From Actinoallomurus spadix (GTDB lineage Bacteria > Actinomycetota > Actinomycetes > Streptosporangiales > Streptosporangiaceae): 64,000 bases of DNA. How positions within the stretch are numbered: position 1 is the first letter of the stretch; the number at the start of each line of letters is the position of its first letter. The stretch spans positions 186,001 through 250,000 of the forward strand of contig NZ_JAMXMX010000008.1 of assembly GCF_024055725.1 (NCBI RefSeq), written 5' to 3'. Position numbers and translations under genes: made by a program. Positions 13,559-26,760 of the stretch are shown piece after piece. A model generated the notes under the pieces. The model saw only the letters and a program-made list of their open reading frames with translations, had not been told where the DNA came from and made no database searches.

Positions 13559-15823
13559 TCAGCTACCGCACTTCTGGCCGTTCAGGGTGAAGGCCGTCGG
13601 GACGGGGTTCTGGCCTGACCAGGTGCCGTTGAAGCCGACCGTGGTCGACGCGCCGGGGTTCAGGTGGCCGTTCCAGCTCAGGCCGGCCGCGGTGACGCTC
13701 TTGCCGGTCTGGGTCCACGTCGCGGACCAGCCCTGGGTGACCCGCTGACCGGCGTCGGGGAAGTCGAACGCCAGCTTCCACGCGTCGACCGCCTTCGTAC
13801 CGGTGTTGGTGATGGAGACGCTCGCGGTGAAGCCGCCCGGCCAGCTGCTGCCGATCGCGTACGCGACCTTGCAGGTTCCCGCCGACGTGGCCGCCGTCCG
13901 TACGGTCAGCGAGGGCGAGAGCGGTGAGACGTTGCCGGCCTTGTCGCGGGCCCGGACGGCGAACGTGTAGGAGGTGTCCGGGGTGAGGCCGGTCACCGTG
14001 TACGACGTGCCGGTGGTGGCGCCTACCTGGGTCGTCGTGTCGCCGTCGACGCGGAGCACGTCGTAGCCGGTCACAACGCCGCCGGCCGACGGCGTCCAGC
14101 TCAGGGCGACGCTGTTGCTCGTGACCGTCCCGGCGACGGGCTTGCCCGGTGCGGTCGGCTGCTGCGTGTCACCGCCGCTCGGCAGCACCACCATGGTGAT
14201 CGAGTTGGCCGGGAAGGTGGCGTTGAAGCCGCTCGCGGTGACGGGCTGGTCGGCCTGCCGTACGACGCCGGTCAGGTCGGCGGAGCTGTAGCGGTAGACC
14301 TGCGCGGTGCCGGCGGAGGCGCCGGTGAGCGCGACCGGGGCGGCCAGGTCGTCACCGGTCTTGTTCACGACGACCATCGTGAGCGCCTTGTCGCTGGATC
14401 GCTCGGCGGCGTAGATCGCGAGCTTGCCCTGGTCCTCGCTGGTCGCCTTGACCGACGTCTCGCCGAACGCCCCGCCCTTGCCGTCGTAGTTCCGGTAGAT
14501 CCGGAACGCGTCGGCCACCGGCTGGTCGCTCGTGGGCGCGGTCCACAGGTCGGCCATGTCGAGTCCCTCGCGGCCGAAGATGCCGAGGACGTCCGCCTCG
14601 GCGAGCGCCCCGTTGAGGTCGCCGAAGGCGCCCCAGCTGTACTCGGTCATGGCGGTCTTCGTCCCGGGATAGTGCTGGTCGACCAGGGCGCGCATCCTCG
14701 GGATCATCTGCACCGGCTGGTTGATCCAGCTCTCGTCGACGTACGTCGGGTCCCAGAGCTGGCGGGTGGAGCGCAGGCGCAGCGCCTTGGTGGTCGCGTC
14801 GCCCGGATCGCTGCTCGAGACGCCGGACTGCTGCGGGTACAGGTGGATGTCGAAGTAGTCCAGGATGCGGGTGCCGTGCGCCTGCTCGTACGCGCGCAGC
14901 TGGTCGAGGTACCACGGCCCGAGGTCCTCGCCGCCGTGCGCGGCCTTGTCCGGCGGGTTCGACCAGCAGCCGGTGCGGTTGCACTGGTCTTGATCGAGGC
15001 CGGAATAGAAGATCGAGTTCAGGCCCCAGCCGACCGGTCCGAGGGTCTTGGCGTCCGGGTCGGCCTCCTTCACCGCCGCGCCCCACTGGTACGTACGGTC
15101 ACGGAGCTCGTCGTAACCGAGGCCGGTGGGGCGGACGTCCCGCTGGGTGCTGTGCCAGATGTCCGGCTCGTTGTCCAGGTCGTAGAAGCGCACTCCGCCG
15201 TCGGCGGCGCCGCCGTAGCGGCTCTTCAGGTGGGCGATCCAGTCCTTGGCGTACTGCGGGCCGACCTCGACGCTGGTGTCCGTCGGGTCGTTGCCGGTGA
15301 TCTGGGTGCCGTCCGGGGTGACGCCGTTCCCGCAGTCCGGTGCCCACTGGTCGGTCTGCTGCTGCGGGCCGTACTTCGCCACGCTGAACCCGCACGCCTT
15401 CGCCCGGTCCTTCGCCACCCAGCCGATCATCGGGAGGGTGAGGATGGTCTTCGTGCCGGTGGCCTGGTCCTGGTCGACGAAGCGGTCGGTCTCCGAGCCG
15501 TCGGGCAGCGTGGACGGGTCGGGGTTGTCGTTGGGGATGTTCTCGAAGAACCAGTCGGCGGCGCGGTTGGTGGTGTCGTTGCGGAAGTTGTAGCGGGAGG
15601 TGGCGTTGCCGCCCCAGCGCCGTACCGGCAGGCGCAGGTCACGGGCGAGGGCCTCGTCGGCGAAGTTCATGCCGTAGATGTAGGGGCTGATCGCGTGCCG
15701 GGCGGCCGTCGTGTCGACGGCGAGAGCGGGGCCGGTGGCGGCCTGGGCGGGCCGTGCCGCGATCACGCCGCCGCCGAGGGCGGCGGCGAGCGCGACCGAG
15801 AGCAGTGCGGGGGCAGTGCGCAC
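13559..15823 (-). CDS. Secreted GH44 glucanase/xyloglucanase with Fn3 and CBM2
   Basis: Exported plant-cell-wall hydrolase of 754 aa. Signal peptide at about 1-29 (cut near AQA-AT). The GH44 catalytic domain (about 30-540) carries VRRWGGNATSRYNF near 67, the acid/base Glu219 in YDLDNEPDIW and the nucleophile Glu394 in MTEYSWGAF. A fibronectin III linker follows at about 565-650, then a family 2 cellulose-binding module at about 655-754 with conserved Trp residues and terminal Cys pair. GTG 15823 is chosen for its AAAGGA site and signal peptide. A perfect CebR operator lies 18 bases upstream, so expression is probably induced by cello-oligosaccharides. Confidence 0.93.
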   Translation of the reverse strand: MRTAPALLSVALAAALGGGVIAARPAQAATGPALAVDTTAARHAISPYIYGMNFADEALARDLRLPVRRWGGNATSRYNFRNDTTNRAADWFFENIPNDNPDPSTLPDGSETDRFVDQDQATGTKTILTLPMIGWVAKDRAKACGFSVAKYGPQQQTDQWAPDCGNGVTPDGTQITGNDPTDTSVEVGPQYAKDWIAHLKSRYGGAADGGVRFYDLDNEPDIWHSTQRDVRPTGLGYDELRDRTYQWGAAVKEADPDAKTLGPVGWGLNSIFYSGLDQDQCNRTGCWSNPPDKAAHGGEDLGPWYLDQLRAYEQAHGTRILDYFDIHLYPQQSGVSSSDPGDATTKALRLRSTRQLWDPTYVDESWINQPVQMIPRMRALVDQHYPGTKTAMTEYSWGAFGDLNGALAEADVLGIFGREGLDMADLWTAPTSDQPVADAFRIYRNYDGKGGAFGETSVKATSEDQGKLAIYAAERSSDKALTMVVVNKTGDDLAAPVALTGASAGTAQVYRYSSADLTGVVRQADQPVTASGFNATFPANSITMVVLPSGGDTQQPTAPGKPVAGTVTSNSVALSWTPSAGGVVTGYDVLRVDGDTTTQVGATTGTSYTVTGLTPDTSYTFAVRARDKAGNVSPLSPSLTVRTAATSAGTCKVAYAIGSSWPGGFTASVSITNTGTKAVDAWKLAFDFPDAGQRVTQGWSATWTQTGKSVTAAGLSWNGHLNPGASTTVGFNGTWSGQNPVPTAFTLNGQKCGS

Positions 15824-15840
15824 GGAGCGTCCTTTCGTCG

Positions 15841-15854
15841 TGGGAGCGCTCCCA
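15841..15854. promoter_or_regulatory. CebR-type operator
   Basis: TGGGAGCGCTCCCA, a perfect 14-bp palindrome identical to the operator bound by the LacI-family repressor CebR in Streptomyces (established knowledge). It lies between the promoter region and the GTG start of the GH44 gene, where a bound repressor would block transcription until cellobiose or cellotriose releases it. No cebR gene is obvious next to it. Confidence 0.88.
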
Positions 15855-15915
15855 TCGCACACAGCTCTTCGCAGCCCGTCAACGAAACCCGTGAATCTTT
15901 CACAACAAGATCGGC

Positions 15916-17026: not shown

Positions 17027-19534
17027 CTACGGGCGGTTGACCGACTCGGCCGCGGGCGGCGGGGAGTCGGGCACCGAACCCGGCTTGGGCTCACCGGTGA
17101 AGGTGAACTTGGCGGTCTCGCCGGTGCCCTCGACGCCGACGATCACGATCTCGCCGGCACGGAGCTCGTTGTACAGGATCTTCTCGGACAGGTTGTCCTC
17201 GATCTCCCGCTGGATCGTGCGGCGCAGCGGACGCGCGCCGAGCACCGGGTCGTAGCCGCGCTCGGCCAGCAGGTCCTTGGCCTCCTGGCGAAGCTCGATG
17301 CCCATGTCGCGGTCCTTCAGCCGCTCGTCCACCTTGGCGATCATGAGGTCGACGATCTCGATGATCTCCACCGGGGTGAGCTGGTGGAAGACGACGATGT
17401 CGTCGACACGGTTGAGGAACTCCGGCCGGAAGTGCTGCTTGAGCTCCTCCTGGACCTTCGCCTTCATCCGGTCGTACGACCCCTGCTGGTCGTTCTCCCG
17501 GGCGAAGCCGACGGAGACGCCCTTGGAGATGTCCCGGGTGCCGAGGTTCGTCGTCATGATCACGACGGTGTTCTTGAAGTCCACGACCCGGCCCTGGGCG
17601 TCGGTCAGGCGACCGTCCTCCAGGATCTGCAGCAGCGAGTTGAAGATGTCCGGGTGGGCCTTCTCGATCTCGTCGAACAGGACCACGGAGAACGGCTTGC
17701 GGCGGACCTTCTCGGTCAGCTGGCCGCCCTCTTCGTACCCGACGTAGCCGGGCGGGGAGCCGAACAGCCGCGAGACCGTGTGCTTCTCCATGAACTCGGA
17801 CATGTCCAGCTGGATCAGCGCGTCCTCGTCGCCGAACAGGAACTCGGCGAGCGTCTTGGACAGCTCGGTCTTACCGACACCGGACGGGCCGGCGAAGATG
17901 AACGAACCACCGGGACGCTTCGGGTCCTTCAGGCCCGCGCGGGTGCGGCGGATCGACTGGGACAGCGCCTTGATGGCGTCGTTCTGGCCGATGACCCGCT
18001 TGTGGAGCTCGTCCTCCATGCGGAGCAGCCGCGCGGACTCCTCCTCGGTGAGCTTGAAGACCGGGATGCCGGTGGCCGTCGCGAGGACCTCGGCGATGAG
18101 CTCCTCGGTGACCTCGGCGACGACGTCCATGTCGCCGGCCTTCCATTCCTTCTCCCGCTGCGCCTTGGCCTGGAGAAGCTGCTTCTCCTTGTCGCGCAGC
18201 GCGGCGGCCTTCTCGAAGTCCTGCGCGTCGATCGCGGACTCCTTGTCCCGGCGCACGTCGGCGATCTTCTCGTCGTACTCGCGCAGGTCCGGCGGCGCGG
18301 TCATGCGGCGGATGCGCATCCGCGAGCCGGCCTCGTCGATGAGGTCGATCGCCTTGTCCGGCAGGAACCGGTCGCTGATGTAGCGGTCGGCGAGCTGGGC
18401 GGCGGCCACCAGTGCGGCGTCGGTGATCGACACGCGGTGGTGTGCCTCGTAGCGGTCCCGCAGGCCCTTGAGGATCTCGATCGTGTGGCTGAGCGACGGC
18501 TCGGCCACCTGGATCGGCTGGAAGCGCCGCTCCAGCGCGGCGTCCTTCTCGAGGTACTTGCGGTACTCGTCCAGCGTCGTCGCGCCGATGGTCTGCAGCT
18601 CGCCGCGGGCCAGCATCGGCTTGAGGATGCTGGCGGCGTCGATCGCGCCCTCGGCGGCGCCCGCGCCGACGAGCGTGTGCAGCTCGTCGATGAACAGGAT
18701 GATGTCGCCGCGCGTGCGGATCTCCTTGAGGACCTTCTTCAGGCGCTCTTCGAAGTCACCGCGGTAGCGGGAACCGGCGACCAGCGCGCCGAGGTCCAGC
18801 GTGTAGAGCTGCTTGTCCTTGAGCGTCTCGGGGACCTCGCCCTTGACGATCTTCTGGGACAGGCCCTCCACGACGGCGGTCTTGCCGACGCCGGGCTCCC
18901 CGATCAGCACCGGGTTGTTCTTGGTACGGCGGGACAGCACCTGCATGACCCGCTCGATCTCTTTCTCTCGCCCGATGACGGGGTCGAGCTTGCCCTCGCG
19001 CGCGGCCTGGGTCAGGTTGCGGCCGAACTGGTCCAGCACGAGCGAGGTCGAAGGCGCAGCCTCCGACGGGCCGCCGGACGACGCCGGCTCCTTGCCCTGG
19101 TAGCCGTGCAGCAGCTGGATCACCTGCTGGCGGACGCGGTTCAGGTCGGCCCCGAGCTTCACCAGGACCTGGGCCGCCACACCCTCACCCTCGCGGATCA
19201 GGCCCAGCAGGATGTGCTCGGTCCCGATGTAGTTGTGGCCGAGCTGCAGCGCCTCTCGCAGCGACAGCTCAAGGACCTTCTTCGCCCGCGGAGTGAACGG
19301 GATGTGTCCCGAAGGTGCCTGCTGCCCCTGGCCGATTATCTCTTCGACCTGCTGGCGGACGGCCTCGAGGCTGATGCCCAGGCTCTCCAGAGCCTTGGCG
19401 GCAACACCCTCGCCCTCGTGGATGAGGCCCAAGAGGATGTGCTCGGTGCCGATGTAGTTGTGGTTGAGCATCCTGGCCTCTTCCTGAGCCAGGACGACAA
19501 CCCGCCGCGCGCGGTCCGTAAACCTCTCGAACAT
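17027..19534 (-). CDS. clpC: Clp protease ATP-binding subunit ClpC
   Basis: HSP100 unfoldase of 835 aa that feeds substrates to ClpP. Two Clp-N repeats (each with [14 protein letters not shown]) span about 1-145. The first AAA+ module has Walker A GEPGVGKT, then a UVR/M-domain around [15 protein letters not shown]. The second AAA+ module has [20 protein letters not shown] and [13 protein letters not shown]. The ClpP loop LIVGF-type region near [11 protein letters not shown] is present. ATG 19534 ([10 protein letters not shown]) is the invariant family start; an ATG five codons upstream is less likely. Essential in related actinobacteria. No mcsA, mcsB or ctsR sits next to it, as usual in this phylum. 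Confidence 0.97.
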
Positions 19535-19776
19535 CTCGTCGCTCCTCACAGAGCGGTCGGGCAGTAGCCGGGATGTCCGACCCTGTCCTCCCGCATGCTA
19601 GCCCGCCCCGCGGTCCCTACCTCGGCGCCGTACCAGAGAAGATTCCCCGGGCTAGGGCTGTTCATCCTCATCCAACTACCGCGCGGGCCCGGGATGTTCC
19701 CCGTACGCCGCAAGCGAACGGCCCGCCGCCGACAAAACTCGGGCAACGGGCCGGTCTGACTTCTCTCTGCCGCGGG

Positions 19777-20097
19777 TCAGTGCGCGCGCTCGTACTCCTC
19801 GACGACGGTCGCCGGGATGCGCCCGCGCTCGTTGACCTTGATCCCACGCGCCTTCGCCCACGCACGGATGTCCGCGCTACGCTCGCGGCTCGAGGCGGCA
19901 CGACTGCGGCGGCGGCGTCCCACGCCGGCCCTCCGCGCGTGCTCCACGAACGGCGACAGAGAATCCCGCAGCTTCTTCGCGTTGTCGCTGCTGAGATCGA
20001 TCTCATAGGAGACACCGTCGATAGAGAACGGAACCGTCTCCTCCGCCTCGCCACCATCGAGGTCGTCGATGAGGCGCTTAATGATCTGCTCTGCCAT
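19777..20097 (-). CDS. lsr2: Nucleoid-associated protein Lsr2
   Basis: Lsr2 (106 aa) bridges AT-rich DNA and silences horizontally acquired genes, an H-NS analogue. The N-terminal dimerisation domain starts MAEQIIKRLIDDLDGG and has VSYEIDLSSDNAKKLRDSL. A basic linker (RRRRSRAASSRERSADI) leads to the C-terminal DNA-binding part AWAKARGIKVNERGRIP, whose RGR is the AT-hook-like minor-groove contact. ATG 20097 is the family start. It sits 242 bp upstream of clpC on the same strand, the same order as in mycobacteria (Rv3597c-Rv3596c). Confidence 0.97.
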   Translation of the reverse strand: MAEQIIKRLIDDLDGGEAEETVPFSIDGVSYEIDLSSDNAKKLRDSLSPFVEHARRAGVGRRRRSRAASSRERSADIRAWAKARGIKVNERGRIPATVVEEYERAH

Positions 20098-20244
20098 GGA
20101 GACTGACCTTTCACCGGAGCAAACTGCATTCGGTTGCCAAAGATATACCGCGACGGTGGCCGGTGACAATTCGAACCACAGATCAGAGTTTAGCACGCCC
20201 GTTACGCAGCGTTATCCCCGGCAATCGCTCTGGATCCCCCCGGG

Positions 20245-20916: not shown

Positions 20917-23900
20917 ATGTTCTACGCGGACCTTCATATCCATTCGAAGTACTCCCGCGCCTGCAGCAAGGACTGTGACCTTGAACACTTGGCCTGGTGG
21001 GCCGGGCGCAAAGGCGTATCGGTCGTGGGGACGGGGGATTTCACGCATCCGGCGTGGATGGAGGAGCTGCGGCAGAACCTGGTTCCCGCCGAACCCGGCC
21101 TGTTCCGGCTGCGGCCCGACCTGGAGCGCAGGGTGGCCCGTACACTACCGCCCGCGTGCCGGGCGCCGGTGCGCTTTCTGCTCTCGGTGGAGATCTCAAC
21201 CATCTACAAAAAGGGTGAACGCACACGGAAGGTGCATCACCTTCTTTATGCCCCCTCGTTCGAGGCCGCCGAGCGCATCACCGCCGCCCTGTCCCGCATC
21301 GGGAACCTGACCTCGGACGGGCGGCCCATCCTCGGCCTCGACTCCCGGCACCTCCTGGAGATCACGCTGCAGAGCGACCCCGGGTCGTACCTCATCCCGG
21401 CGCACGTGTGGACCCCGTGGTTCTCCGTCCTGGGATCGAAATCCGGCTTCGACGCCGTCGCGGACTGCTACGACGACCTCGCCGACCACATCTTCGCCGT
21501 CGAGACCGGCCTGTCCTCCGACCCCCTGATGAACTGGCGGGTCGGCTCGCTCGACCGGTACCGCCTCGTCAGCAACTCCGACGCGCACTCCCCGCCCGCG
21601 CTCGCCCGTGAGGCGTCGGCCTTCACGACGGAGATGGACTACTACGCGCTGCGCGCCGCGCTGGAGACCGGCGAGGGCTACGCCGGCAGCGTCGAGTTCT
21701 TCCCCGAAGAGGGCAAGTACCACCTCGACGGGCACCGCAAGTGCGGCGTACGCCTGGAACCCGAGGAGACCAAGGCGCAGGACGGCCGCTGCCCGTCCTG
21801 CGGCCGCCCGCTCACCGTCGGCGTGCTGTACCGCGTCGACGAGCTCGCCGACCACCCCGAGGGACGCCGCCCCGACGGCGCGGCGGACTTCCGCAACCTC
21901 ATCCCCCTCCCGGAGATCGTCAGCGAGATCCGCGGTGTCGGGCCGCGCTCCAAGTCCGTCCTGGGCCACATCGCCGAACTCGTGGCGGCCCTCGGGCCGG
22001 AGCTGGCGATCCTCGACGAGGTGCCGCTCGACGACGTACACCGGGCGGGCGGCGAGCTCCTGGCCGAGGCGATCGCCCGGCTGCGGCGGGGCGAGGTGAT
22101 CCGCGACGCCGGATTCGACGGCGAGTACGGCGTCATCCGTCTCTTCCACGAGGGCGAGCTCCGCCGGGACGGCAAACGCGCCGTCGGCCTCCTGGGCGCG
22201 CCCGACGACGCGGGGCTGTTCGACCTGCCCGAGCCGTCCGCCGCCTCCGCCACGTCGACCGGGCCCGCCACGGTCGTACGGGACACGGCGCCCGCGGTCC
22301 GCGAACCCGGCCTGTTCGACGTTCCGGGCGCCGAGGACCGCCCCTCGCCCCTGGAGAGCGCCGCCGCCGCGGCCTCAGAGGCCCACGAACCCGTCCAAGA
22401 GGCCGTCCCCGATGAAACACCGATCGAGGGCCAGCAGGACATCCTGGAAGCCGTCGAGGCCGCCGAGAACTCGATCCCGGCGGAGGAGGACGGCGCATCC
22501 CTCCCAGAGGAGGGCGATACGCCGATCCGGGAGGCGGGCGGCACCTTCATCGCGGATGAGGGCGACCCGTCGATCCTGGACGGGCTGGACCCGGACCAGC
22601 GGGCCGCGGCCGCTCATCCCGGCGGGCCGCTCCTGATCATCGCCGGCCCCGGCACCGGCAAGACCCGGACGCTGACGCACCGCATCGCCCACCTCGTCGG
22701 CGAGCGCGGCGTCCCGCCCGAGCGGTGCCTGGCGATCACGTTCACCCGCCGCGCGGCCGAGGAGATGCGCGAGCGCCTCGACGCGCTCCTGCCCGGCCGC
22801 GCCCACCGGCTCACCGTGACGACCTTCCACGGCCTGGGCGCGCTGATCCTGCGCGAGCAGCACGCCCGCGCCGGACTGCCCGACGGCTTCCGGATCGCGG
22901 ACGAGACCGACCGGCTCGACGTCGCCCGGGAGATGACCGGCTCGGACAAGGAGGCGCGGCGGCTGCTGGCCGAGTTCGACCGGCCGGAGGGCGACGGCGG
23001 GCGGGACGGGTCCGAGGCCCGCAGCTCGTTCGAGAAGCGCCTGCGCGAGCGCGGCCTGGCCGACTTCACCGACCTGCTCCGCCTTCCCGTACGCCTCCTG
23101 GGCGAGGACCCCGGGCTTGCCGGGGCCTACCGCGACCGCTGGCCGTGGATCAGCGTCGACGAGTACCAGGACGTCGACGAGACGCAGTACGCCCTCCTGC
23201 GGCTGCTGACCGGATCGGGTCCCGTGGACGGCGGGCCGGCCGGGCGCGGCCCTGCGGACGGCGGGCCGGCCGGGCCGGGCTTCGGGGACGGCGGGCTGAC
23301 CGCGATCGGCGACCCGGACCAGGCCATCTACTCCTTCCGTGGCGCGGACGTCGGATTCTTCCTGCGCTTCCAGGAGGACTTCGCGGACGCGACGACGGTC
23401 CAGCTGACCCGCAACTACCGGTCGGCGCCCGCGATCGTCGACGGAGCCGTACGCGCGATCGCCGCCACCAGCCTCGTGCCCGACCGGACGCTCGTCCCGC
23501 AGCGCTCCGGCGACCGGCTCATCCAGGTGCACGAGACGGCCGACGCGCAGGCGGAGGCCGATCACGTCGTCGGCACGATCGACCGGCTGCTCGGCGGGGC
23601 GTCGTTCCACTCGATGGACTCCGGGCGCTCCGACGGCCACCACGCCGACCACCTGGACTTCTCCGACATCGCCGTGCTGTACCGGACCGACGCGCAGTCC
23701 GAACCCGTCATGGAGGCCCTCACGCGGGCCGGCATGCCGTACCAGAAACGCTCGCACGACCGGCTGCTGGGGCGGCCCGGCGTCCGGGAGCTCGCCCACG
23801 AGCTGCGACACCACGGCGGGCCCCTGCGCGACCGGCTCCGCGCCGCGGCGGGCGTGCTCGCCGAGGTGCACGACGAGTCGGTGCTGCGGTCGGCGGCCGA

Positions 23901-24291
23901 GCTGATGACGCCGCTCGCCAGCCGCCACGGCGACGACCTGGAAGGGTTCCTGGGCGAGCTGGCCCTGGGGGCCGAGGTCGACGCGTACGACCCGCGCGCG
24001 GACCGGATCGCGCTGCTGACGCTGCACGCGGCGAAGGGGCTGGAGTTCCCGGTCGTGTTCGTCATCGGCTGCGAGGACGGGCTGCTGCCGCTGCGGCTGC
24101 CGGACAGCGACGAGGCGGAGGAGCGCCGGCTGTTCTTCGTCGGCATGACGCGGGCGCAGACACACCTGTACCTGTCGTCCACGCGCCGCCGGGAGCCCTC
24201 GCCGTTCCTGCGCGCGCTCCCGGCCGAACTGGTGACCCGCCCGGAGGCGGCACGCCGACGGCCCCGGGATCGGCAGCTACGGCTGCTGTGA
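20917..24291 (+). CDS. Fusion of Endonuclease Q-like PHP nuclease and UvrD-type helicase
   Basis: A 1124-residue protein. Residues 1-430 match Endonuclease Q: PHP metal motifs DLHIHSKYS (H7, H9), GTGDFTHP (D41, H44), Glu92 and SNSDAHSP (D222, H224), then the EndoQ zinc domain (C276, C292, C295) and LYRVDELADHPEG. EndoQ nicks DNA 5' of deaminated bases (inosine, uracil, xanthine) and abasic sites. After an acidic linker (about 431-555), residues 556-1124 are an SF1A helicase: Walker A GPGTGKT 577-583, TFTRRAAEEM, VDEYQD near 747, GDPDQAIYSFRGAD near 798 and FFVGMTRAQTHLYLS. The union suggests nick-and-unwind repair in one chain. ATG 20917 is chosen by homology; its ribosome site is weak and an ATG 18 codons upstream is possible. 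Confidence 0.9.
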   Translation: MFYADLHIHSKYSRACSKDCDLEHLAWWAGRKGVSVVGTGDFTHPAWMEELRQNLVPAEPGLFRLRPDLERRVARTLPPACRAPVRFLLSVEISTIYKKGERTRKVHHLLYAPSFEAAERITAALSRIGNLTSDGRPILGLDSRHLLEITLQSDPGSYLIPAHVWTPWFSVLGSKSGFDAVADCYDDLADHIFAVETGLSSDPLMNWRVGSLDRYRLVSNSDAHSPPALAREASAFTTEMDYYALRAALETGEGYAGSVEFFPEEGKYHLDGHRKCGVRLEPEETKAQDGRCPSCGRPLTVGVLYRVDELADHPEGRRPDGAADFRNLIPLPEIVSEIRGVGPRSKSVLGHIAELVAALGPELAILDEVPLDDVHRAGGELLAEAIARLRRGEVIRDAGFDGEYGVIRLFHEGELRRDGKRAVGLLGAPDDAGLFDLPEPSAASATSTGPATVVRDTAPAVREPGLFDVPGAEDRPSPLESAAAAASEAHEPVQEAVPDETPIEGQQDILEAVEAAENSIPAEEDGASLPEEGDTPIREAGGTFIADEGDPSILDGLDPDQRAAAAHPGGPLLIIAGPGTGKTRTLTHRIAHLVGERGVPPERCLAITFTRRAAEEMRERLDALLPGRAHRLTVTTFHGLGALILREQHARAGLPDGFRIADETDRLDVAREMTGSDKEARRLLAEFDRPEGDGGRDGSEARSSFEKRLRERGLADFTDLLRLPVRLLGEDPGLAGAYRDRWPWISVDEYQDVDETQYALLRLLTGSGPVDGGPAGRGPADGGPAGPGFGDGGLTAIGDPDQAIYSFRGADVGFFLRFQEDFADATTVQLTRNYRSAPAIVDGAVRAIAATSLVPDRTLVPQRSGDRLIQVHETADAQAEADHVVGTIDRLLGGASFHSMDSGRSDGHHADHLDFSDIAVLYRTDAQSEPVMEALTRAGMPYQKRSHDRLLGRPGVRELAHELRHHGGPLRDRLRAAAGVLAEVHDESVLRSAAELMTPLASRHGDDLEGFLGELALGAEVDAYDPRADRIALLTLHAAKGLEFPVVFVIGCEDGLLPLRLPDSDEAEERRLFFVGMTRAQTHLYLSSTRRREPSPFLRALPAELVTRPEAARRRPRDRQLRLL
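23224..23313 (+). repeat. 30-bp tandem repeat inside the helicase domain
   Basis: Units begin at 23224, 23254 and 23284 and encode VDGGPAGRGP, ADGGPAGPGF and GDGG then normal helicase sequence. The first two are nearly identical in DNA, adding about 20 Gly/Pro-rich residues between helicase motifs II and III. Confidence 0.8.
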
Positions 24292-24867
24292 CCCCGGCTC
24301 GTCCACGGGCTCGACCACGGGCTCGACCACCGGGCCGGCCACGCGGCCGGGCTCGCCGGGCTCCTCTTCTCGCGCGGAGCCCGGCGCGGGCGGCTCCTCC
24401 ACCGGGCCCGGCGCGGACGGCCGGACGTCGATGACGAGCGTGCCGGCCGCGCGGTCGTGCAGGGCCTGGCGGTACGAGCCCTCGAACATCAGGCCGTTCT
24501 CGGCCAGCCAGAAGATCGCGGCGAGGATGTTCAGGACCGGCACCGGGCGCGCGGCGGGCGGCAGCGCGTAGATCGCCGCCCGGACGAGCACCTGCGCCAC
24601 GGTCGGCCGCTCCCCCGTCGCCGAGATCACCCGCAGGCCGGTGAGGCGCTTGCCGACCGTGCATCCCCAGATCGCGACCTGCACCGCCTCGTACAGGAAG
24701 AACGCCACCGCGAAGGCGATGGGCGCGGCGACGTGCTGTGCCGTCTGGCGGGGGAACAGCTCGGTCGCGCCCGTGGCGACGGGCACGCCGACGATGAGGG
24801 TGTCGATGATCCGGGCGACCAGTCGCTGTGACGGCTCCGCGACGGCGCCGGCGCCCTCCTCGGTCAC
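24277..24867 (-). CDS. RDD family membrane protein
   Basis: Membrane protein of 196 aa with an RDD domain (about 10-150): RLVARIIDTLIVGV opens helix one with the Arg and Asp of the family, FFLYEAVQVAIWGCTVGKRLTGLRV holds the second helix and the conserved GKR, and a third helix follows near ILAAIFWLAENGLM. An acidic Pro/Glu/Val repeat tail (about 150-196) ends the chain. GTG 24867 overlaps the stop of the preceding RDD gene by four bases. Its 3' end overlaps the EndoQ-helicase gene, on the opposite strand, by 15 bp. RDD proteins are proposed ion/proton exchangers, but most are untested. Confidence 0.88.
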   Translation of the reverse strand: MTEEGAGAVAEPSQRLVARIIDTLIVGVPVATGATELFPRQTAQHVAAPIAFAVAFFLYEAVQVAIWGCTVGKRLTGLRVISATGERPTVAQVLVRAAIYALPPAARPVPVLNILAAIFWLAENGLMFEGSYRQALHDRAAGTLVIDVRPSAPGPVEEPPAPGSAREEEPGEPGRVAGPVVEPVVEPVDEPGSQQP

Positions 24868-25517
24868 TCGTCCGCGAACTCTCGGTCGTCGACCACCACG
24901 GTGGCCGCCAGCCGGTCGTGCAGGCTCTGGTGCAAGGGCCGGTCCCAGATCGCCCAGAGGTACGCCATCACGGTGCCCAGTCCGCAGCCGAAGAGATAGA
25001 CGATGTTGTTGACGGCCGCGCGGGCCGACGCGCGGGCGGGGGTCAGGGGCTCGCCCGTTTCGGTGAGCACGCGCAGTCGCAGCACGCGCTTGCCGAGCGT
25101 CTGGCCCCACAACGCGAGTTGCACCGCCTCGTACCCGAACGGCAGGACCCCCACGACGAGGATCCAGCCGACGATGGCCGTGCCGGACCAGATGCCGCCG
25201 CCGCTCTTGAAGTGGCTGCCCGGCTCGTTGAGCCCCACCGCCGCGATCATGAAGGGGAGGATGAGCGCGAACCCGGCGACCCCGAGCAGCCCCGCGTCGA
25301 TCAGCCGCGCGGCGGCCCGCCGCGCGATCGGGGCGAGCAGCAATTCCGCGGGCGGCTCCTGCTCGCCGTACGCGCCGCCGTCGCCGTACGCGCCGCCGTC
25401 GCCGTACCCGCCTTGATCGCCGTACGCGCCGCCGTCGCGGTATCCGCCGTGGTCGCCGTGGGCGCTCGGACCGCCGTACGCGCCCTGGTCGCCGTACACG
25501 GGGTAGGGCTCGCTCAT
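24864..25517 (-). CDS. RDD family membrane protein with Gly/Tyr-rich N-terminus
   Basis: Paralogue of the next gene, 217 aa. A low-complexity N-terminus (about 1-52) repeats GGAYGDGG/GGYGD-type units and is probably unstructured. The RDD domain (about 60-205) starts ARRAAARLIDAGLLGVAGF, has a periplasmic loop of about 20 residues, FGYEAVQLALWGQTLGKRVLRLRV, and a third helix NIVYLFGCGLGTVMAYLWAIW. Translationally coupled on both sides: its ATG overlaps the argA stop (ATGA) and its stop overlaps the next GTG. Duplication of a single RDD gene within the operon is likely. Confidence 0.88.
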   Translation of the reverse strand: MSEPYPVYGDQGAYGGPSAHGDHGGYRDGGAYGDQGGYGDGGAYGDGGAYGEQEPPAELLLAPIARRAAARLIDAGLLGVAGFALILPFMIAAVGLNEPGSHFKSGGGIWSGTAIVGWILVVGVLPFGYEAVQLALWGQTLGKRVLRLRVLTETGEPLTPARASARAAVNNIVYLFGCGLGTVMAYLWAIWDRPLHQSLHDRLAATVVVDDREFADE

Positions 25518-26029
25518 CGATCACCTTCCAGGTGCAGCAGCATCCGCGTGTTGCCCAGGGTGTTCGGCTTGACCCGCTCCAGGTCGAGGAACTCCGCCAC
25601 GCCGTCGTCGTAACTGCGCAGCAGCTCCTCGTACACCACAGGGGAGACCGGCGTGCCCTTGAGGGGCTCGAACCCGTGCCGGGCGAAGAACTCCACCTCG
25701 AACGTCAGGCAGAACACGCGGTGCACCCCGAGCTCGCGCGCGGTGTCGAGCAGCCGCGCGACGATCCGGTGCCCCACGCCATGCCCACGCCGGGACGGAT
25801 CGACGGCCACCGAACGGACCTCGGCCAGATCCTCCCACATGACGTGCAGCGCGCCGCATCCGACGATCTCAGCGCTCGCCCGGTCCTCCGCCACCCAGAA
25901 CTCCTGGACGTCCTCGAAGAGGGTGACGGTCGTCTTCTCCAGCAGGCGGCCCGGCCCGGAGTACAGGTCGATGAGCCGCCGGATCGCCCGGACGTCGGTG
26001 ACGCGGGCGCGACGGGTCGCTATATCCAC
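25514..26029 (-). CDS. argA: Amino-acid N-acetyltransferase (N-acetylglutamate synthase)
   Basis: Stand-alone GNAT protein of 171 aa of the type found in Mycobacterium tuberculosis (Rv2747), which acetylates glutamate or glutamine for arginine biosynthesis. GNAT motif A is seen in VRSVAVDPSRRGHGVGHRIV (acetyl-CoA loop RRGHGVG), and motif B in FCLTFEVEFFARHGFEPL. The fused kinase-like domain of E. coli ArgA is absent, as expected for this short class. GTG 26029 gives the family N-terminus. First gene of an apparent three-gene operon with two RDD proteins, an odd partnership for an arginine gene. Confidence 0.88.
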   Translation of the reverse strand: MDIATRRARVTDVRAIRRLIDLYSGPGRLLEKTTVTLFEDVQEFWVAEDRASAEIVGCGALHVMWEDLAEVRSVAVDPSRRGHGVGHRIVARLLDTARELGVHRVFCLTFEVEFFARHGFEPLKGTPVSPVVYEELLRSYDDGVAEFLDLERVKPNTLGNTRMLLHLEGDR

Positions 26030-26063
26030 AATCAGGGGACCCTAGCCGCTGGGACCCACTGGG

Positions 26064-26309
26064 TCAGATCAGCTGCCGCCGCGCCGCCCAGACGACGGCC
26101 TCGATGGGGGTGTTCACGTCGAGCCGGTCACAGATCGATCGCAGCCTCCTCCGCAGGGTGCGCGCGCTGAGTTCGAGTTTCCGCGCCGCCACATCTGCGG
26201 TGACGCCCGTGGCGATCTGCGCGAGCAGGCGAAGCTCGTCCTCGCTCAGACGCGGATCGTCGGTGCCACGGCGTGCGAGTGTGGCCTGTTCCACTCCGTC
26301 CTCCCTCAT
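26064..26309 (-). CDS. Small LuxR-type helix-turn-helix protein
   Basis: Single-domain DNA-binding protein of 81 aa: LSEDELRLLAQIATGVTADV then LELSARTLRRRLRSICDRL and VNTPIEAVVWAARRQLI form a GerE/LuxR helix-turn-helix. No receiver or ligand domain precedes it. The same frame is open for 82 more codons upstream, but that part is Pro/Ala-rich and not domain-like, so ATG 26309 is preferred; the ribosome site is weak. It lies 34 bp downstream of the argA start on the same strand as the argA operon but beyond its 5' end, so it may be transcribed just before it. Confidence 0.65.
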   Translation of the reverse strand: MREDGVEQATLARRGTDDPRLSEDELRLLAQIATGVTADVAARKLELSARTLRRRLRSICDRLDVNTPIEAVVWAARRQLI

Positions 26310-26760
26310 CCCGGGTGATGGCTGCGGGGGTGCGGCGACAGCCGCATGGGCACGGGTAGGCGAAGGCGCACTTGACCGGAGTTGGCCGCCCGCCCGCATG
26401 AGGATGCGCGACGCGGGAACTCCGGGTAACGATTCATACGTTGGAGAGTTGAGCGGGAACGTCGCCTCGGGTGCACGAGGAAACGTCCCGGCGGCGTTGC
26501 CGGGACCGAGTTCGGCGTGTCCGGGTGGGGTCATGTGTGCGCCCTCGCCCCCCATCCTTTCGCGCAGCGATCCGGCAAGATCGTGAATCGTTTCAAGGTA
26601 CGCTCCGCTCCGGAACGCTAAGCGGCCGTCTTCCCAGCGTCAAGGGTTGGCATGTTACGCCGCGTACACCGTCGTATCCGTTCCGCTACATAACACATCG
26701 GCCACAGTTGTTCACCCTCGTCGACCTGCGGAAATCGGTCTCACCGGGAAGGTGGAAGCG
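26310..26760. other. 451-bp intergenic region before the LacI gene
   Basis: Apart from the uncertain upstream extension of the small LuxR-type gene, no gene is seen. It contains a LacI-type operator candidate at 26584-26595 and a divergent promoter region. Confidence 0.5.
26584..26595. promoter_or_regulatory. Candidate LacI-family operator
   Basis: TGAATCGTTTCA, ten of twelve positions palindromic around a central CG, as in operators of LacI/GalR proteins. It lies 165 bp upstream of the LacI-family start and may serve autoregulation (inference). Confidence 0.4.

Follow-up and report, generated by a model that had tools for sequence, protein, structure and literature searches.

Endonuclease Q (EndoQ) cuts DNA on the 5′ side of a lesion and leaves 3′-OH and 5′-phosphate ends (PMC4357722). 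The archaeal enzyme binds the sliding clamp PCNA through a C-terminal PCNA-interacting protein (PIP) box and is stimulated by it, and bacterial homologs carry clamp motifs (PMC4858679). For the steps that follow incision, the Figure 10 legend of one paper proposes that EndoQ and Endonuclease V (EndoV) cut on both sides and that a “helicase activity” removes the piece (PMC4357722), and the model of a later review includes a helicase, FEN1, a polymerase, and a ligase (PMC8438529). Here, we describe a gene of the soil actinobacterium Actinoallomurus spadix in which an EndoQ module and a superfamily 1A (SF1A) UvrD-type helicase form a single chain of 1124 amino acids (aa). The gene is an unbroken plus-strand frame at positions 20917–24291 of a 64,000-nucleotide stretch (positions 186001–250000 of contig C70, in an assembly of 71 contigs; hereafter “the window”). 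This chain would resemble the published EndoQ models in combining 5′ incision with subsequent strand displacement or helicase removal (PMC4357722, PMC8438529) but, unlike these models, in which the helicase is unnamed and separate, it holds the helicase in the same polypeptide. Compared to the EndoQ of P. furiosus (PfuEndoQ), TkoEndoQ, and the B. pumilus enzyme, the A. spadix chain adds a helicase via an acidic linker, and the fusion has a second clamp-type motif at its far end.

Two enzymes in one reading frame

The union of an EndoQ family member and an SF1A UvrD-type helicase in one 1124-aa chain, as claimed in a preliminary description of the window, draws support from its sequence, the conservation of the active sites, the fold prediction, and numerous orthologs, and the presence of the fusion in the A. 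spadix gene is confirmed. The EndoQ module retains the PHP metal residues (H7, H9, E92, H107, H163, D222, and H224) and the base-pocket residues G198 and S200. Across 81 fused EndoQ domains, a set that includes near-copies, the catalytic and pocket residues E76, H84, H139, G169, S171, D193, and H195 (Pfu numbering) are identical in all 81, and the metal residues H8 and H10 in all 80 domains with a letter there; G169 and S171 have a role in the lesion pocket (PMC8307549). The zinc region, in which we looked for CPxCG and four ligands, contains CPSCG along with H273, C276, C292, and C295. Where Pfu has the first Cys of its CSRC pair, A. spadix and the other 16 aligned rows displayed have a His. 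Relative to archaeal EndoQ, this substitution (DGHxxC, within the region of A. spadix residues 273–295) is seen in the bacterial and Micrarchaeota rows displayed, i.e., in every displayed row except Pfu. The His may act as a zinc ligand, and the zinc region of bacterial and Micrarchaeota EndoQ is possibly an HCCC site.

The predicted structure, compared with known structures using VIA-align, has the EndoQ fold. The NCBIfam model TIGR00375 scores 148.5 bits, under its curated cut-off of 326.6, so that the A. spadix protein is not filed under this family. The preliminary description had allowed for an N-terminal module from another PHP family, which is contradicted by the EndoQ residues, family matches, and fold. 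Given the active-site and pocket identity with characterized EndoQ, the module would be expected to incise 5′ of deoxyuridine (dU), deoxyinosine (dI), deoxyxanthosine, and apurinic/apyrimidinic (AP) sites.

In the second half, both Pfam UvrD-helicase and UvrD_C are over their cut-offs, and equivalog models score below theirs (PcrA, 352 of 911 bits; Rep, 275 of 951; UvrD, 257 of 1144). The key residues of motifs I–VI, previously described as complete in this protein, are invariant across 57 aligned fused proteins. Compared to UvrD/PcrA paralogs, motifs III and V lie closer together in A. spadix (spacing of 237 versus 309–323 in five measurable paralogs), with a median of 248 and a range of 233–311 among fused proteins (54 of 57 measurable). 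Similarly, the spacing between motifs I and II is 172 versus 192–197 in the paralogs (fused proteins: median 170.5, range 144–218). The fused helicase further differs from UvrD/PcrA SF1A helicases by its clamp-type end motif and by forming its own clade. By analogy with SF1A helicases, its polarity would be 3′ to 5′.

The two halves are joined by a linker, earlier estimated at about 125 residues and acidic. Residues 426–550 include 30 Asp/Glu versus 4 Lys/Arg, and the predicted local distance difference test (pLDDT) score is < 50 at residues 418–514 and 519–548. A coding-type G+C content by codon position persists across the entire fusion frame, linker included. Based on four sequence pairs, the ratio of non-synonymous to synonymous substitution rates (dN/dS) is 0.06–0.09 for EndoQ, 0.20–0.26 for the helicase, and 0.38–0.62 for the linker (residues 412–551); purifying selection acts on both halves and far less on the linker. 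A sigma-70 scan, which is uninformative for a GC-rich actinobacterium, found no promoter.

Table 1 Features of the fusion gene in the window
Feature	Residues	Position	Strand	Basis or remark
EndoQ–UvrD fusion gene	1124 aa	20917..24291	+	Open frame; family and PDB matches; 65/79 related loci with both halves in-frame
Endonuclease Q module	1–418	20917..22170	+	Metal, base-pocket, and zinc-region residues
Acidic linker	426–548	22192..22560	+	Predicted disordered; overlaps the internal LF motif
Internal LF motif GLFDLP	433–438	22213..22230	+	Candidate first clamp-binding motif; end of EndoQ module
SF1A UvrD-type helicase	549–1112	22561..24252	+	Motifs I–VI intact; 1B and 2B regions shortened
C-terminal sliding-clamp-type motif QLRLL	1120–1124	24274..24288	+	Conservation and published consensus

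Spread and history of the fusion

The spread of the fusion was assessed on samples of genomes. A scan of one genome per species returned 112 pattern stretches, 89 of which were confirmed, and the best 80 were kept, yielding 79 loci. Both halves lie in a single frame at 65 of these loci, six of them cut by a contig end and one frameshifted inside the helicase. The others are cut by contig ends (L059 and L088), have the halves in two frames (L069), or carry EndoQ alone (L073 and ten more). Mapping the phylogenetic spread, as previously suggested, placed fused loci in nine phyla: Actinomycetota, Myxococcota, Verrucomicrobiota, Gemmatimonadota, Planctomycetota, Rhodothermota, Omnitrophota, Thermodesulfobacteriota, and Fibrobacterota, with the Gemmatimonadota, Planctomycetota, Rhodothermota, Omnitrophota, and Fibrobacterota cases all from metagenome bins. 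Named strains with the fusion belong to Actinoallomurus, Kutzneria, Actinoplanes, Polyangium, Geminisphaera, and Desulfoluna. The closest named relatives belong to Actinoallomurus itself (90% to A. soli over the best segment), and both halves were matched in 8/8 genomes of this genus. At the order level, EndoQ was detected in 56/150 genomes, in frames of >1000 aa (33), shorter frames with a whole domain (20), or broken frames (3), and all 19 long-frame loci that were fetched from this sample, the window’s own apart, had a helicase match inside the same open reading frame (ORF). At the class level, EndoQ was detected in 58/394 genomes, 45 of them with frames of >1000 aa, and in the phylum sample both halves shared one frame in at least 5/296 genomes, with two candidates scored per genome. 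A frameshift or assembly join, raised earlier as a possible origin of the fusion, is contradicted by these single-frame relatives, the genus genomes, and the codon-position G+C pattern.

Individual broken copies were also observed. In the complete genome of Sorangium cellulosum So ceGT47, the reading frame of the fusion changes partway through the helicase, leaving the gene in two frames (L061:7620-11141), and in another strain (L062) it lies in one frame. In an Akkermansiaceae bin (L069:4075-6807), fragments of EndoQ and of the helicase occupy two frames that overlap, which would reflect either a frameshift or an assembly error. Frame changes or a stop interrupt three EndoQ-only actinobacterial copies, those of L159 and L160 (genomes G391 and G429) and of genome G396, out of 56 genomes with EndoQ in the order sample, perhaps through ongoing decay in a lineage without the helicase.

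Phylogenies were built for each half. The EndoQ tree included 66 of 108 rows, after removal of doubtful or broken sequences (L059, L069, L073, and L159), long branches (L075, L076, and L086), and near-copies (five of them EndoQ-only). The helicase tree included 54 of 75 rows, after removal of the long-branch L007, L012, and L086 rows (L086 being a fused one) and of near-copies. In the latter, all 40 fused rows fall on one side of a branch separating them from 14 paralogs (support 99/97). In the EndoQ tree, the Nitrospirota, Candidate Phyla Radiation (CPR), and Micrarchaeota sequences fall outside the fused group, and a fused-only clade excluding the actinobacterial EndoQ-only proteins is rejected (approximately unbiased test, p 3e-8; two changes). 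The simplest account is a single early fusion event, after which some actinobacteria lost the helicase; in one actinobacterial branch, EndoQ appears to have been retained without it. This order is suggested by the EndoQ-only outgroups, since change counts alone give no direction. Near the actinobacterial EndoQ-only genes, no helicase match was found at 15 loci (L146–L160; tblastn, 1e-10; flanks of a few kb).

Clamp-type motifs

The C-terminal QLRLL of the A. spadix protein matches the clamp consensus Q-phi-x-[L/M]-[F/L] (PMC13254535), and no row of the 57-row alignment departs from Q1120 or L1123. Tails were counted in 58 proteins, i.e., the 59 C-terminally complete among 65 fused ORFs (six being cut by a contig end) minus the frameshifted L061; two of the 58, L026 and L072, begin at a contig start. 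The relaxed pattern Q..L[FLIMW] lies ≤3 residues from the end in 57 of these, and the remaining one, L035, has QLTLF nine residues before the position seen in the others. By comparison, this pattern was detected in 3/681 other ORFs of these loci, a control set defined by ORF length that may include many non-genes; two of the three matches are the EndoQ-only proteins of L082 and L084. It was detected in 0/6 C-terminally complete UvrD-family paralogs, and shuffled tails gave an expectation of 0.5/58. The strict pattern Q[LIVA]x[LM][FL], searched within the last 15 residues, was found in 37/58 fused proteins versus 0/681 control ORFs.

A second motif, of x-L-F-[D/E] type, lies about 16 residues past the EndoQ core (within 45 aa of its end) in 56/58 complete fused proteins, with L434 and F435 each ≥90% conserved across the 57 rows. 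Its leading Q is kept in six of eight Thermodesulfobacteriota, the Fibrobacterota row, and one Myxococcota row. Similar tails occur in EndoQ-only proteins: 5 of 10 located outside the fused clade carry QSPLF (two), QASLF, QQKLL, or QKNLL at their end, and in ten of the 15 actinobacterial EndoQ-only loci an ORF terminates with PTLF or PALF (one broken upstream), the other five comprising one with a QTLF end, one with PTLF eight residues earlier, and three with none. Because EndoQ-only proteins carry such tails, the internal motif looks like an old EndoQ tail, and the terminal motif may have arrived with or after the helicase. Taken together, these tags probably hold the fusion protein on the replication clamp. 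The clamp-type tail, second LF motif, shortened helicase subdomains, and multi-phylum spread were not part of the preliminary description.

A candidate repair mechanism, its alternatives, and the genomic setting

We propose, with a probability of about 0.6, that the fusion repairs deaminated bases and abasic sites as a clamp-tethered, incise-and-displace enzyme. From the fusion itself, its intact active-site residues, predicted folds, conserved motifs, single fusion origin in the trees, and chromosomal location, we infer the following steps. The two short motifs, at the end of the EndoQ module and at the C-terminus, would tether the chain to the beta sliding clamp. The EndoQ module would then flip out the lesion (uracil, hypoxanthine, xanthine, or an abasic site) and cut on its 5′ side, leaving a 3′-OH and a 5′-phosphate, as its active site and pocket suggest. 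The long flexible linker would permit loading of the helicase at the nick, from which it would run 3′ to 5′ on the intact strand and peel off the downstream fragment that begins with the lesion. UvrD uses this nick-loading, damaged-strand-peeling geometry in excision and mismatch repair. Finally, a polymerase on the same clamp may extend the 3′-OH, the flap may be removed by the 5′ nuclease of Pol I or by a second cut from EndoV, in line with the published model that combines EndoQ, EndoV, and a helicase, and ligase would seal the strand. The nick-and-unwind repair put forward in the preliminary description is plausible. The suggestion made there of a bypass of base excision repair, in the sense of a substitution, is not supported: the A. 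spadix genome encodes four uracil-DNA glycosylase (UDG)-superfamily genes and one EndoV, so the fusion enzyme would add to base excision repair and not replace it. UDG and EndoV matches were found in 149/150 and 143/150 genomes of the order sample, respectively, and replacement of either by the fusion was rejected, as these 150 genomes display no exclusion pattern.

More tentatively, and with less than even odds in our view, the fusion could represent a bacterial repair pathway of its own across phyla. A two-motif clamp-bound machine would couple recognition, 5′ incision, and strand removal, the lesion leaving as a flap or, with EndoV as the second cutter, as a short oligomer, like a miniature UvrABC–UvrD system in which neither a glycosylase nor an AP endonuclease takes part. 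The two motifs would fill both pockets of a single clamp dimer, so that nicking and unwinding occur in order.

Several observations weigh against a clamp-tethered incise-and-displace enzyme. The presence of the fusion is patchy, and the near-universal UDG and EndoV imply that repair of uracil or hypoxanthine does not generally depend on it. EndoV co-occurrence is itself uninformative (54/56 genomes with EndoQ versus 89/94 without). The apparent loss of the helicase with retention of EndoQ would make the helicase dispensable in that actinobacterial branch, and the long-branch L086 fell outside the fused helicase clade in a quick tree. The predicted template modeling score (pTM) of 0.59 means that the placement of the two halves relative to each other is not confident. 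As for the motifs, 21/58 tails lie outside the strict consensus, mostly through a final I or M or through M, E, or Q at position 2, and the internal motif has no leading Q in most lineages, A. spadix included.

A rather unlikely alternative reverses the order, with the helicase, at forks, transcription bubbles, or recombination intermediates, feeding single-stranded DNA (ssDNA) to EndoQ, so that damaged strands would be surveyed or dismantled and no patch repaired. EndoQ also cuts dU and dI in ssDNA (PMC6202378, PMC11354406), the clamp-type motifs suggest fork-linked work, and the helicase is UvrD/PcrA-like. However, ssDNA cleavage at a fork would be expected to break the chromosome, and abasic sites in ssDNA are a poor EndoQ substrate (PMC6202378), so that part of the range needs duplex DNA. 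A drift of the PHP module to other lesions, e.g., oxidized pyrimidines, ribonucleotides, or abasic sites only, with deaminated bases a minor substrate, seems decidedly unlikely to us. P. furiosus EndoQ also cleaves 5-hydroxyuracil, dihydrouracil, and AP sites (PMC8307549), and nearly every genome of the order sample already has UDG and EndoV to deal with uracil and hypoxanthine, but the identity of pocket residues H139, G169, and S171 in all 81 fused domains argues against such a drift.

The A. spadix fusion is flanked (17027–20103 and 24864–26555) by clpC, lsr2, RDD, GNAT, and helix-turn-helix (HTH)-type genes. Ten loci from Thermomonosporaceae, Nocardiopsidaceae, and one unassigned actinomycete bin share the adjoining lsr2 and clpC and a following GNAT gene. 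Nocardiopsidaceae loci match clpC, lsr2, GNAT, and the HTH-type gene, RDD being matched in Thermomonosporaceae only, and the short contig of L051 has lsr2. The neighbors kept in relatives are thus clpC, lsr2, and the GNAT gene, and not the radA, disA, and mutY found about 10–16 kb away, which makes the earlier label of a “repair-rich neighborhood” misleading. No operon partner common across phyla was found in an all-against-all comparison of neighboring ORFs (flanks of L017–L086); the only neighbor cluster spanning five families lay on the opposite strand of the fusion gene itself. EndoQ had no match among 50,697 phage records or 72,556 plasmid records, the full protein had none in plasmids at 1e-60, and none of 61 pattern matches in viral contigs was confirmed (two short patterns used). 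Because the actinobacterial neighbors are kept and no phage, plasmid, or confirmed viral-contig match was found, this setting speaks for a housekeeping repair gene over a mobile defense gene. Defense against phage or foreign DNA that carries uracil or otherwise altered bases, with EndoQ nicking and the helicase degrading or stripping the invader as in nuclease–helicase defense systems, is accordingly highly improbable: an antiviral role of bacterial EndoQ has been proposed in reviews (PMC8307549, PMC10380557), the helicase half matches GajB and other defense helicase profiles (43 families), and EndoQ is patchy in the class sample, but PcrA scores 352 bits versus ≤233 bits for defense profiles among the matches listed, the EndoQ half matches no PADLOC model, and all eight genus genomes have the fusion. 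The known nuclease partner and mobile or island setting of anti-phage nuclease–helicase systems (Gabija and others) were not seen either, the GajA partner gene not having been separately searched for. Elsewhere in the window, a large minus-strand ORF (13559–15862) is glycoside-hydrolase-like, with a fibronectin-like stretch and a cellulose-binding-like tail (translation judged by eye).

RecBCD acts on double-strand ends, with a different nuclease and without lesion recognition. The fusion resembles this E. coli complex as a nuclease–helicase with a clamp-binding motif (PMC13254535), the motif of the fusion being read from sequence. Our search of the open-access literature found no paper on an EndoQ–helicase fusion, and the fused proteins must have been present in sequence databases for years. 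Bacterial EndoQ is far wider than the few genera (Bacillus and Desulfovibrio) in the papers cited, and the fusion is old, since it spans phyla. A fused SF1A helicase with trimmed accessory subdomains would also be useful for studies of helicase control. In the papers cited, the steps after EndoQ incision are drawn only as models, one with an unnamed helicase (PMC4357722). A natural, phylum-spanning EndoQ–UvrD fusion with conserved clamp-type tags is a candidate for this helicase, and the order of steps could be tested with one purified protein.

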